From Nitrospirota bacterium (GTDB lineage Bacteria; Nitrospirota; Thermodesulfovibrionia; Thermodesulfovibrionales; UBA6898), in assembly GCA_004321925.1 (NCBI GenBank), contig SCQH01000101.1, positions 1 to 33,703 on the forward strand: a DNA stretch of 33,703 bases, read 5' to 3'. Below, piece by piece: positions 4,159 through 33,499 of this stretch. The position numbers and the translations under genes are program-made. How positions within the stretch are numbered: the stretch's first letter is position 1; each line of letters opens with the position of its first letter. The notes under the pieces are model-generated. The model ran no database searches, was not told the DNA's origin, and saw nothing but the letters and a program-made list of their open reading frames with translations.

Positions 4159-4737
4159 ATGTCGTATAGCGCAAAGGATTACAGTAAGCTTATCGGGATG
4201 GAAGGGTTCAGCGAGACGCTGCTGAAGAACCATTTTACCCTCTATCAGGGGTATGTCACTAACACCAATAAACTGGTCGAGATTCTCGACCAGATGCTGA
4301 AGGACGGGAAGACCGCGGTCCCGGAGTATGCCGAGCTCAAGAGGAGGTTCGGCTGGGAGTTCAACGGCATGAGGCTCCATGAGTATTATTTCGAGAACCT
4401 CGGCGGCAAGGCCGCCATAAATAAGGGCGGAGCACTTGCCAAGAAGCTTTCAGAGCGTTTCGGAAGCGTTGAGGACTGGGAAAAGGACTTCCGGGCGACC
4501 GGGGCCATGCGCGGGGTCGGCTGGGTGGTGCTCTACCAGGACGCAGCATCCGATGCTCTCTTTAATGTCTGGATCAATGAACATGATGTTTCACACCTGG
4601 CAGGCTGCACGCCGATATTGATCATGGACGTATTTGAACATGCCTTTATGATCGATTACGGGCTCAAGAGGCCTGATTATATCGGGGCGTTCTTTAAGAA
4701 CATCGACTGGGCCGCAGCAGAGGCGCGTCTGAAATAG
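4159..4737 (+). CDS. sod: Superoxide dismutase, Fe/Mn family (divergent)
   Basis: This 192-residue enzyme dismutates superoxide to peroxide and oxygen. The four metal ligands are visible as H25 (KNHFTLYQGYV), H74 (MRLHEYYFEN), D157 and H161 (IMDVFEHAF). The active-site Tyr of the YV motif is kept at residue 32. Differences from textbook SodA/SodB: the KHH segment after the first ligand is replaced by FTLYQ, one residue shorter. Gly70 takes the place of the Fe-type Gln69, and by motif alignment a His near 142 replaces the Mn-type Gln146. These fit the less-studied Gly/His subgroup of the Fe/Mn family, so metal choice is uncertain. There is no signal peptide, so it is cytoplasmic. AGGAGG precedes the ATG. 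Confidence 0.93.
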   Translation: MSYSAKDYSKLIGMEGFSETLLKNHFTLYQGYVTNTNKLVEILDQMLKDGKTAVPEYAELKRRFGWEFNGMRLHEYYFENLGGKAAINKGGALAKKLSERFGSVEDWEKDFRATGAMRGVGWVVLYQDAASDALFNVWINEHDVSHLAGCTPILIMDVFEHAFMIDYGLKRPDYIGAFFKNIDWAAAEARLK

Positions 4738-4760
4738 GGCTTACCGGGAGATGCAGGAAT

Positions 4761-4789
4761 AAAAAAGGGGTCGAACAGACCCCTTTTTT
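4761..4789. terminator. Strong bidirectional intrinsic terminator
   Basis: A perfect 12-bp stem AAAAAAGGGGTC / GACCCCTTTTTT closes on a 5-nt loop. It ends the nitroreductase-sod transcript. On the minus strand it lies 18 nt beyond the stop of the Cys-rich peptide gene, so it also ends the radical SAM transcript. Confidence 0.93.
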
Positions 4790-4807
4790 ATGGCTTAATT
4801 CTGAACC

Positions 4808-4870
4808 TTAGCAAGAGCTTTTGCACTTGCAGGTCATGGCAACTTTTCTTGAGACCTTCGTGATCTTCAT
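4808..4870 (-). CDS. 20-residue Cys-rich peptide, candidate radical SAM substrate
   Basis: A minus-strand ORF encodes MKITKVSRKVAMTCKCKSSC. It is strongly basic with three cysteines in the last seven residues (C14, C16, C20) and ends at TAA 4808. AAAGGTGG lies 8 nt upstream of the ATG, a convincing ribosome-binding site. It starts 43 nt after the stop of the radical SAM/SPASM gene on the same strand and is followed after 18 nt by a strong terminator, so it should be the last gene of that transcript. The frame is open upstream to 4921, so a GTG at 4882 or 4879 could add four or three residues. Short peptides with a C-terminal Cys/Ser core beside a PqqD-like radical SAM enzyme are typical RiPP precursors. 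Its role as precursor is inference; a chance ORF is possible. Confidence 0.5.
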   Translation of the reverse strand: MKITKVSRKVAMTCKCKSSC

Positions 4871-4913
4871 CCGTAGCACCACCTTTCTGAGTGGAATCAG
4901 GGCTTCATACCCT

Positions 4914-6053
4914 TTACGTTTTCATTATATCATAAAGATGACATCTGTAAAGGTCTCGCCCCCCTGGGCCTCCGAGGAGCTCAGCCCGGTAGCGGCAGCC
5001 GCCTCTGCAGGACTCAAGAAAGTCGCAGTCGCAGTCCAGGGAATCGAGCCTGACCGGCCTGATCCGTTCCCAGCATTCCCTTAGGCCTTCACTGACGCTG
5101 CCGACTGCCTTGTCAGCATAGAAGGTGCATTTCGCCGCCTCTCCCTGGGCAGTGACCGACATGAGGTGAAGGCCGCAGCCATAACCCTCGGCGCTGCCAT
5201 GCAGGCCGCTCCCGTATCCATACTTGAGATATTTGCCCCCCTGCTTGGGAGTTACGATGAAGTCGCTGTTTTCGATGAGTCTGCCTGCTGAACAGGGCAC
5301 ATCGACCGTCCAGTCCCGTATGCCCATCTCCCTGAACATCCTGTCCATCGCCTCAAAGTCAGAGAGGTTCTTCTGATGCACCATCGTTGAGACGGAGGTC
5401 TCGATACCGGCCTCCCTGCAGAGACGCACTGCCTCTGTCGCTGCCCGGAAACTGCCCCTGCCGCGCAGGCTGTCATGGGACGCCTCAAGGCCGTCAATGC
5501 TGACCTGGACCTCGTCGACGAAGAGTGAATCAAGCAGGTCCCTGGTCACCAGAAGCCCGTTCGTGAAGAGGACCTTCCTGAAGGAATGATCAGGGAGGAG
5601 ATTGTTGATGGCCGCAAACCCGGTATGCAGCAGCGGCTCGCCGCCGGTAATGAGGAGTCTGAGCCCCTGCATCTGCTCAAACTCGGCCAGGATCCTCCGG
5701 ATCTCATCGAGAGGAAGCTCCGTATGAACATTGTTGCTGCCGATATAACAGTGCCTGCATCTGAGGTTGCAGCGGTCCGTGATCTGGAGTTCGAGGTACC
5801 GCAAAGACGGGACAGGGGATTGGACCGGCTCAGGACGGGACACCGCCACAGTCTCTGTTGTCAGAATTCCCTCTTCGAGACAGTACGCAGTAAAGTCATT
5901 TTCATCCGAAAGGGCCCCGCCCTCAGAGGAGCAAGCCAGCAGAAAGACGAACGCAGACTCATCGAGCTCATAGAGTTCGTCCTTCCCGATGTGATAGACA
6001 GCTGGCGTTTCGAGCCGCTTTAAAGCAGCATCTTTTGAGAGGAACCAACGCAT
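4914..6053 (-). CDS. Radical SAM/SPASM peptide-maturase-like enzyme with PqqD-like N-domain
   Basis: The protein is 379 residues in three parts. Residues 1-75 resemble the PqqD/RRE fold that binds leader peptides (FLSKDAALKRLETPAVYHI). Residues 85-260 are a radical SAM core with the CxxxCxxC cluster at C95, C99 and C102 and the SAM-binding GGEP at 137-140. Residues 290-375 are a SPASM domain with C293-x15-C309 (preceded by Gly304), C343-x5-C349-x3-C353 and C371. The usual CxxC of SPASM is CDC here (C341, C343). Enzymes of this build install thioether, C-C or epimer modifications on ribosomal peptides. The adjacent 20-residue Cys peptide is the obvious candidate substrate. The gene lacks a Shine-Dalgarno, and its -10 box sits 7 nt from the ATG. 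It is divergent from the cupin operon. Confidence 0.85.
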   Translation of the reverse strand: MRWFLSKDAALKRLETPAVYHIGKDELYELDESAFVFLLACSSEGGALSDENDFTAYCLEEGILTTETVAVSRPEPVQSPVPSLRYLELQITDRCNLRCRHCYIGSNNVHTELPLDEIRRILAEFEQMQGLRLLITGGEPLLHTGFAAINNLLPDHSFRKVLFTNGLLVTRDLLDSLFVDEVQVSIDGLEASHDSLRGRGSFRAATEAVRLCREAGIETSVSTMVHQKNLSDFEAMDRMFREMGIRDWTVDVPCSAGRLIENSDFIVTPKQGGKYLKYGYGSGLHGSAEGYGCGLHLMSVTAQGEAAKCTFYADKAVGSVSEGLRECWERIRPVRLDSLDCDCDFLESCRGGCRYRAELLGGPGGRDLYRCHLYDIMKT

Positions 6054-13739: not shown

Positions 13740-14012
13740 CTATGCCTTATGATGCACCTTCTCTGCGAGCCAGACCTTGATGAGCGACTGATAGGGAACA
13801 TCACGTTTGTTGGCCTCGATCTTTATCTGTTCCAGCAGAGCAACGGGCAATCTGATGGATATTGATTGGGTGGACAGTTTGAGATTCGGGAATCTCACCT
13901 GTTCTGCTTTTGACCAGTCAAGATAATCCGTGGAGTCATGCGTTTCCCAGAATTCACGCTCGTCAGCTTCAGATCTGAATTGAGGGATTGGCTTAAGGTG
14001 TTTTCTGCTCAT
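13740..14012 (-). CDS. brnA: BrnA-type antitoxin
   Basis: The 90-residue ribbon-helix-helix protein neutralises BrnT and represses its own operon in known BrnTA systems. Seen: the N-terminal REFWETHDSTDYLDWSK region typical of BrnA/CopG-like antitoxins, and the DNA-binding strand TQSISIRLPVALLEQIKIEANKRDVPYQSLI at about residues 48-78. The start overlaps the end of brnT by 20 nt, and AGAGAGGAG lies just upstream of ATG 14012. The palindrome at 14299-14319 in the operon promoter is the natural operator. Confidence 0.88.
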   Translation of the reverse strand: MSRKHLKPIPQFRSEADEREFWETHDSTDYLDWSKAEQVRFPNLKLSTQSISIRLPVALLEQIKIEANKRDVPYQSLIKVWLAEKVHHKA

Positions 14013-14295
14013 AAATACTCCTCTCTTTACGGTGCATCGGCCGTGCCGAAATTATCCGTATTCTTGTCCCGTTGCCCCGGAATGTGAATGAGATGTGCAG
14101 CAGCCGTTCTTCATTTGTCTTTCCGAGGGCATAAAATCGAGCTTCACGGTGACTATGTTTATCATCCGCCAATAACAGCAACGGCTCGTTCACAAATATC
14201 TGCTCTGCTTCCGCCTGCGTTACTCCATGCTTTTCGTTCTTGCGCGCATTTCCAGGGTCCCATTCAAACCCTTCGACCCGATGCAGATCTATCAT
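13993..14295 (-). CDS. brnT: BrnT-type ribonuclease toxin
   Basis: A 100-residue toxin of the BrnT (RelE-fold) family, which cleaves RNA to arrest growth. Seen: FEWDPGNARKNEKHGVTQAEAEQIF near the N-terminus (the family hallmark with KHGV), REARFYALGKTNEERLLHISFTFRG, and the C-terminal RIRIISARPMHRKERSIYE with its conserved SAR-M-RKE-YE. Toxin-first order is normal for this system. The start at ATG 14295 has no Shine-Dalgarno and lies 6 nt from the -10 box, so the mRNA is probably leaderless, which would give low toxin translation compared with the SD-driven antitoxin. The pair sits at the edge of the accessory region. Confidence 0.9.
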   Translation of the reverse strand: MIDLHRVEGFEWDPGNARKNEKHGVTQAEAEQIFVNEPLLLLADDKHSHREARFYALGKTNEERLLHISFTFRGNGTRIRIISARPMHRKERSIYEQKTP

Positions 14296-32527: not shown

Positions 32528-33499
32528 ATGGCTAGGAAACCGAGGATAGAATTTGAGGGAGCTTTTTATCATGTAATAACGCGCGGAAATCAGAGACAGA
32601 AGATATTCAGGGACGAGGGGGATTTCGGAAAATACATTGAAATACTCTCCAGGTACAAGGCCTTGTACAAATACCGCCTGTATGCCTATGTCCTTATGAG
32701 CAACCATGTGCATCTTCTGATCGAGACGGGGGAAACTCCACTTTCAAAGATACTTCAGGGCATCAATCAGAGCTATACGGAGCGATTCAACAGAAAATAC
32801 AAAACGGTCGGCCATCTCTTCCAGGGCAGGTACAAGGCCATACTCTGCGACCGCGACGACTATCTGCTTTCCCTTGTCAAATATATTCACCTGAACCCGG
32901 GTAGGGCGCGTCTTGTGGAGACCCCTGAAGAATACACCTGGAGCAGCCATGGGGCATACCTTAAGCCTGTCAGTAAGAGTATCATAGACGAGGAGCAAGT
33001 GCTCAGAATGTTTTCTGAGAACAAGGGGATAGCGAGGCGGCTTTATGAAGCATATGTCGGAGACGGGATCGGTGTAAAGAAAGAGGACATATACTCCACC
33101 ATAGATAAGAGAATACTCGGGAATGAACAATTTGCAAATACGGTCATGGATAAGTGCGATGCTGCTGTTGAGCCCGGGAAAAGGGCGAGGGAATACTCAC
33201 TGGGGGCAGTTGCCGCTGCAGTCTCGGATATATTCGGTATAACGCTGACGCAGATGAGACACAAAGGCAAGGACAGAGACATCACAAAGGGAAGAAAGCT
33301 GTTCAGTATCGTTGCGCATGAGTACAGGTATAAAGGCAGAGAGATCGCCGAATATATGCGCAAGGACCCGGCCCTGATCACACGGCATGTCAAAGAGAGT
33401 AAGAAACTGGAAAAGGACACGGCAGAGGTGATAGCAATGTTAAAGGTTAAGAAATCAAATGTCAATAGTCAACAGGCTGTTGAAAAACACCCATATTGA
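32528..33499 (+). CDS. REP-associated tyrosine transposase (Y1/HUH)
   Basis: A 323-residue TnpA_REP-type transposase, which nicks single-stranded hairpin DNA and can mobilise REP/REPIN sequences. Seen: N-terminal MARKPRIEFEGAFYHVITRGNQRQKIF, the HUH metal-binding pair H60 and H62 (VLMSNHVHLLIE), and catalytic Tyr candidates Y83 or Y91 (INQSYTERFNRKYKTVGHLFQGRYKA). The C-terminal 110 residues form a helix-rich DnaA-like DNA-binding part (EYSLGAVAAAVSDIFGITLTQMRHKGK). The protein ends SNVNSQQAVEKHPY: the first residues of this tail are the inverted repeat, and the last are encoded by the following hairpin. Relatives would be expected to continue through the repeat differently, so the C-terminus is probably altered. 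No Shine-Dalgarno before the ATG. Confidence 0.93.
   Translation: MARKPRIEFEGAFYHVITRGNQRQKIFRDEGDFGKYIEILSRYKALYKYRLYAYVLMSNHVHLLIETGETPLSKILQGINQSYTERFNRKYKTVGHLFQGRYKAILCDRDDYLLSLVKYIHLNPGRARLVETPEEYTWSSHGAYLKPVSKSIIDEEQVLRMFSENKGIARRLYEAYVGDGIGVKKEDIYSTIDKRILGNEQFANTVMDKCDAAVEPGKRAREYSLGAVAAAVSDIFGITLTQMRHKGKDRDITKGRKLFSIVAHEYRYKGREIAEYMRKDPALITRHVKESKKLEKDTAEVIAMLKVKKSNVNSQQAVEKHPY
33453..33472 (-). repeat. RAYT right inverted repeat
   Basis: AATCAAATGTCAATAGTCAA, the exact reverse complement of the left repeat, overlaps codons for KSNVNSQ near the transposase C-terminus. Confidence 0.85.

Follow-up and report, generated by a model that had tools for sequence, protein, structure and literature searches.

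The window, a 33,703-nucleotide stretch from a Nitrospirota genome of 3.2 Mb, carries on its minus strand the gene for a candidate maturase of 379 aa (4914..6053), followed by the gene for a candidate 20-aa precursor peptide (4808..4870). The enzyme begins with a PqqD-like RiPP recognition element (RRE, approximately residues 1-70, 5844..6053), continues into a radical SAM core with the cluster motif CxxxCxxC (5748..5771), and ends in a SPASM region containing C293, C309, C341, C343, C349, C353 and C371 (4941..5177). The peptide ORF starts 43 nt past the enzyme stop on the same strand, has the Shine-Dalgarno (SD) sequence AAGGTGG (4879..4885) 8 nt before its ATG, and encodes MKITKVSRKVAMTCKCKSSC, a version with lysine at position 17, termed Lys-type here. 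A sigma70-type promoter for the peptide gene, TTTACA-16-TATAAT with an extended -10 (4924..4951, 11/12 matches), overlaps the end of the enzyme gene, and a conserved 5' leader RNA spans 4868..4927; both are on the minus strand, as are all the features above. An intrinsic terminator (4759..4791, minus strand) is bidirectional and common to the peptide gene and a convergent Fe/Mn superoxide dismutase (SOD) gene (4159..4737, plus strand; Pfam Sod_Fe_C, 1.2e-25), which is context outside the system. The initial annotation had read the enzyme, the small ORF with its good ribosome-binding site and a strong terminator 18 nt later as a candidate RiPP locus, and each of these parts was located as described. 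Elsewhere in the window, two small overlapping ORFs (13740-14295, minus strand) were recognised by eye as BrnT/BrnA toxin-antitoxin-like, and 32528-33499 (plus strand), also by eye, as a REP-associated tyrosine transposase-like protein.

The three cysteines of the cluster motif (C95-x3-C99-x2-C102) and all seven C-terminal SPASM cysteines are invariant in 75 homologs. The classical SPASM spacing at the point of C341 and C343 is CX2C, whereas this enzyme has CX1C. Pfam recognises only the radical SAM core (81.9 bits). The NCBIfam equivalogs NirJ, ScmE, WgkB, GeoRSP and mycofactocin all score far under cutoff, with GeoRSP (TIGR04303) at 73.8 bits against 400 and mycofactocin (MftC) at 72.8 bits against 265; ACGX reaches 79.6 bits, and the PqqE model is absent among the best 25 NCBIfam matches. 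In its radical SAM core, the enzyme belongs to the same broad group as GeoRSP, SCIFF/ranthipeptide, ACGX and other TIGR-defined systems. It differs from all of these in lying far below their cutoffs (400) and in having a precursor without an NCBIfam match, and from SCIFF/ranthipeptide, where the precursor has six Cys in about 45 residues, in that the peptide here has three Cys in 20 aa.

The AlphaFold2 model of the enzyme has a mean pLDDT of 94.6, and the closest solved folds to the whole protein are SuiB (Z 26.9 over 348 residues, model residues 3-377) and SkfB (Z 26.1 over 328 residues). The N-domain, modelled separately (pLDDT 89), aligns in VIA-align with TbiB1 (Z 6.7), lasso B1 (6.2), PqqD 5sxy (5.3; 62 residues, 2.2 A), MccB (5.2) and SuiB (4.6). 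The top structural matches of residues 1-82 are nearly all RREs and also include ThcOx and PbtF, with Foldseek E-values that for so small a domain are weak alone (0.05). By fold, the N-domain is a leader-binding-type RRE, in agreement with its first description as PqqD-like, and leader binding is its predicted role. RRE/radical SAM/SPASM maturases of RiPPs are an already known kind. Like SuiB/streptide and the SkfB/AlbA-type sactisynthases, this system has a matching whole-length fold, an N-terminal RRE, seven SPASM cysteines and a small peptide gene beside the enzyme; unlike them, it has a 20-aa precursor with three Cys, precursors that also occur unlinked, and no exporter or peptidase near the locus, and the identity is 15-17%. 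In a Syntrophaceae-like genome, a second copy of the enzyme is interrupted by an internal stop and has no adjoining peptide (G314:C81:1344-2264, L279).

Scanned for the peptide pattern, 84,980 species yielded at least 118 contigs and, with other loci, gave at least 134 distinct peptide sites. An SD-like stretch is present at every one of the 134 sites listed and a 20-aa Cys-ending frame at nearly all, and the enzyme lies 13-198 nt upstream at 82 of the 134. Because the scan had fixed the motif, peptide invariance in that set partly reflects the search pattern itself, and the conservation test was therefore repeated on loci fetched via the enzyme alone (n = 50 with enough downstream sequence). 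An ORF of 15-40 aa with at least three Cys, Cys being the last residue, lies downstream in 42/50 of these loci, compared with 1/50 for the opposite-strand control. This is far beyond chance, and the small peptide gene is real. All 42 of the ORFs are exactly 20 aa long and follow the pattern [M/V]xIxK...CKCxxSC, with I3, K5, C14, K15, C16, S19 and C20 invariant and with variation at positions 13 (T/L/N) and 17 (K/S/H/C). The proposed split into a basic N-terminal leader and a CKCKSSC core fits this conservation, I3 and K5 falling in the former and the remaining invariant residues in the latter. The in-frame pN/pS of the peptide is 0.25-0.32 (0.315 in the enzyme-anchored set); the two remaining reading frames of that set give 1.72 and 0.91. 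Synonymous sites are free to vary and the protein is not, so selection on the small ORF acts on the protein. Both checks put forward in the initial annotation, a small ORF conserved downstream of the enzyme in homologs and selection visible at the codon level, thus turned out in favor of the gene.

The peptide gene was probably overlooked by standard annotation because of its small size. The initial annotation did not recognise the precursor family, and the peptide indeed has no NCBIfam match and no Pfam match; the phages and viral contigs searched contain no relative. Searches of open-licence papers for the core strings TCKCKSSC, CKCKSSC, CKCHSSC and TCKCKGSC gave no match, and the open-licence literature on radical SAM and copper peptides held nothing matching the peptide family or any radical-SAM copper peptide. 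With no NCBIfam model or open-licence paper found for the peptide, the family looks undescribed. One 7880-base contig (G006:C26, L185) has a tandem duplication of the enzyme 3' end, leader and peptide, in which the upstream enzyme copy runs off the end of the contig and the inner copy is a short remnant.

The Lys-type gene has its own transcription signals. A promoter with 10 or more of 12 positions matched, no more than 150 nt upstream of the peptide, is present at 52/82 enzyme-linked sites (1.0 expected) and at 14/34 unlinked Lys-type sites (1.3 expected), and at none of the 13 sites of the His/Tyr-type class described below (0/13 by the same test). Terminators follow 40/79 enzyme-linked sites (2.3 expected) and 6/38 unlinked Lys-type sites (0.6 expected), with no match in the His/Tyr-type class. 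The terminator in the window folds at -21.9 kcal/mol (z -5.5), its hairpin starts about 18 nt past the peptide stop, and 0/200 shuffles are equally stable. Since promoters and terminators are enriched at Lys-type sites, the Lys-type gene is transcribed independently of the enzyme, and probably strongly, as would be the case for a precursor produced in larger amounts than the enzyme acting on it.

The leader RNA consists of a first hairpin with a covarying stem and a loop that is mostly AUGAA, followed by another hairpin overlapping the SD. In the stem, 31 cells are altered on both sides, compared with 7.1 expected by shuffling, and 0/500 shuffles reach 31. Rfam gives nothing above gathering score for this RNA. 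A model built from it finds one copy in its own genome (1.5e-10), and among 31 genomes its confident matches are almost only upstream of the peptide gene. It is possible that the leader is a metal- or protein-responsive element. As a candidate regulon-wide element it was set aside, the extra matches inspected (L262, L253, L255 and L256) looking like chance.

The enzyme and the peptide have nearly the same distribution. Of 61 relatives, 46 encode the enzyme and 48 the peptide. By profile search of 296 Nitrospirota genomes, 98 encode the enzyme and 102 the peptide, the latter figure including 3 weak partial matches; both are present in 96 genomes, the enzyme only in 2 (one a fragment), the peptide only in 3, and neither in 195. 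The peptide-only genomes (G037, G039 and G296) showed no recognisable enzyme on renewed search. In the family of the source genome, both are missing from three genomes (G005, G009 and G010) and present in the sisters of these, so the loss is joint. Outside the phylum, by enzyme search alone, the enzyme is present in 17/199 Thermoleophilia genomes and in 10/17 genomes of the order of a Syntrophaceae-labelled genome, with the pair kept in both; these taxon names are metagenome-record labels, individual ones of which may be incorrect. The out-of-phylum loci are a true out-of-sample test of peptide conservation. A precursor gene linked to the enzyme (42/50) and co-occurring with it supports the reading as a candidate RiPP locus, in which the enzyme presumably modifies the peptide. 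The copper-operon paralogs described next, the separate promoter, the RNA leader and the spread across phyla go beyond the initial annotation.

The gene neighborhoods of the 134 sites listed, with clusters judged by eye, include no recurrent exporter, immunity gene or peptidase, and no MNIO (DUF692) enzyme was recognised among the recurrent neighbors. A leader peptidase could be encoded elsewhere or not be needed. SOD is near 16/134 of the peptide sites listed and is encoded in 148/296 genomes. It was considered as a functional partner and rejected, since it tracks the system only partly and, outside G027, synteny seems to account for most of its proximity. In that genome (C5, near 338488; L086) a Lys-type peptide directly precedes a SOD-nitroreductase-ferritin-like gene run and the enzyme is elsewhere; the neighbor genes of this peptide also flank the enzyme-peptide pair in the window.

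Extra peptide copies of the form [T/S]CKC[H/Y]xSC, in which position 17 is His or Tyr, are unlinked to the enzyme (n = 24). Ten of these came from profile searches and not from the fixed-pattern scan, and several of the ten have Ser13. Queried with the Cu-ATPase adjoining one such copy, a Cu-ATPase lies within 4 kb of 16/24 His/Tyr-type copies; a YHS-domain thioredoxin reductase is near 7/24, and a Met-rich small protein is encoded directly downstream of 13/24. At least one of the three is present at 21/24 His/Tyr-type copies compared with 0/118 Lys-type copies (Fisher 1.4e-15, or 2.7e-9 against unlinked Lys-type copies only, taking as independent sites that share phylogeny). Three of the ATPases beside His-type copies score 608-638 bits against the TIGR01511 copper cutoff of 397, and a CopA-type multicopper oxidase adjoins another His-type copy. 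The ATPase may come before or after the peptide, with the His-type ORF downstream of it at S2, S16, S107 and S122, and this varying gene order argues against one frozen copper block. The thioredoxin-reductase-like protein with an N-terminal YHS domain (L092:6007-7071, minus strand, and homologs) is recurrent in copper operons. The Met-rich protein directly after the His-type peptide at L092:4506-5084 (minus strand) is small and secreted-looking, with no Pfam or NCBIfam match.

The His/Tyr-type copies also appear tied to the enzyme. The enzyme is encoded elsewhere in 21 of 22 genomes that have a His/Tyr-type copy, against a background of 98/296 (p 2.7e-10, again with phylogenetically related sites taken as independent), and the N-terminal pattern MxIKKV.KK is common to His-type and Lys-type peptides. 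In two Thermoleophilia genomes the His-type peptide directly follows the enzyme, which links this type to the enzyme family.

These observations are best accounted for, with moderate confidence, by a two-gene RiPP-like system whose product is a thiol-rich metal ligand, the Lys-type being a housekeeping form and the His-type serving copper. The peptide would be a ribosomal precursor whose N-terminal part, MxIxKV.KK, is read by the RRE of the enzyme, and the C-terminal CKCxxSC would be the core, modified by the radical SAM/SPASM enzyme most likely at or through its cysteines. Since the peptide lacks an export signal and neither a transporter nor a peptidase is linked to it, the product probably stays in the cytosol and acts there, most likely as a thiol-rich metal ligand. 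The Lys-type would be a housekeeping ligand, its strong separate promoter allowing bulk production. The His-type paralog, made inside copper-resistance operons, may serve copper handling after maturation in trans by the enzyme that also modifies the Lys-type. A metal role for the Lys-type is suggested by analogy with the His-type, the copper context of the Lys-type being 0/118, and the role of the Lys-type is the weakest step of the model. Two further points count against it: many SPASM-enzyme chemistries can yield products that are not metal ligands, and three genomes (G037, G039 and G296, as above) have the peptide without a recognisable enzyme.

The main rival is that the peptide gives rise to a redox or catalytic cofactor, like those of the PQQ and mycofactocin systems, the copies in copper operons being a side use, because the grammar of the system resembles that of mycofactocin, in which a short conserved precursor and one radical SAM/SPASM enzyme co-occur near-perfectly and are sporadically lost (PMC3023750). 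The same features link MftA/MftC and PqqA/PqqE to the present pair: extreme conservation, one enzyme, a short precursor and sporadic co-loss. Lys-type genes also lie near those for SOD, rubrerythrin, nitroreductase and oxoacid:ferredoxin oxidoreductase, but these redox neighbors partly look like inherited synteny, and no client family was found here. Unlike mycofactocin and PQQ, the system has the core CKCxxSC, no separate MftB/PqqD gene and no further maturation genes adjoining. The invariant residues of that core are three cysteines, not quinone-forming residues, and a cofactor does not predict paralogs in copper operons. A cofactor is thus unlikely, although it deserves to be kept in view.

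It is quite improbable that the peptide is an unmodified mini-metallothionein that binds metal as translated while the enzyme has another target. Plain metal binding would agree with the three Cys in CKCxxSC and with the copper-operon location of the His-type, but not with the tight adjacency and co-occurrence with an enzyme of an RRE-bearing, peptide-modifying class, nor the lack of the peptide, the three peptide-only genomes aside, where the enzyme is missing.

Several His-type ORFs directly precede the Met-rich gene and the Cu-ATPase, and the Lys-type has a structured 5' leader, as might be expected of a regulatory leader peptide whose translation responds to metal or cysteine and so regulates the genes after it. 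In Bordetella, CruR (DUF2946) is such a small Cys-containing, copper-responsive upstream ORF (PMC9426467), and it likewise heads copper operons. The peptide differs from CruR in lacking the RAPP arrest motif, in its varying position relative to the copper genes (His-type ORFs also lie behind the ATPase), and in its enzyme linkage. The terminator that often follows the Lys-type (40/79) leaves no gene to control, and the dependence on an enzyme would be unexplained. A role as a leader peptide is therefore very unlikely. The same holds for a sactipeptide-like bacteriocin or exported signalling peptide, which the nearness of the enzyme fold to SuiB and SkfB might suggest. The pair has no recurrent exporter, immunity gene or peptidase nearby at the 134 sites listed, its peptide is near-fixed in sequence across phyla, unlike bacteriocins, and copies are located in copper operons. 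A chance ORF, for which nothing but the small size speaks, is refuted by conservation at no fewer than 134 distinct sites.

The metal-ligand model may extend to a radical-SAM-made family of intracellular copper (metal) peptides, in which one enzyme serves several scattered 20-aa precursors and the change from Lys17 to His17 marks the copper-operon version; this is put forward tentatively. Bufferins are Cys-rich ribosomal copper-handling peptides made by MNIO enzymes (PMC12452194), and the present peptide resembles these, the oxazolins and the methanobactins (MNIO/DUF692-made) in being a Cys-rich ribosomal peptide tied to copper handling. It differs from bufferins, which have Sec signals and are periplasmic, in that its enzyme is a radical SAM protein and the peptide is 20 aa long with no signal peptide. 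If the family is what it appears to be, it would be a cytosolic, radical-SAM counterpart of bufferins and methanobactins. Copper binding by its product would mean that modified peptides handling copper are made by radical SAM as well as MNIO enzymes, and that they act in the cytosol as well as the periplasm. The single-residue difference that goes with copper operons offers a direct and cheap handle on function. The pair adds a near-fixed peptide-plus-maturase family, present in mostly uncultured bacteria of the Nitrospirota, the Thermoleophilia and Syntrophaceae-like lineages.
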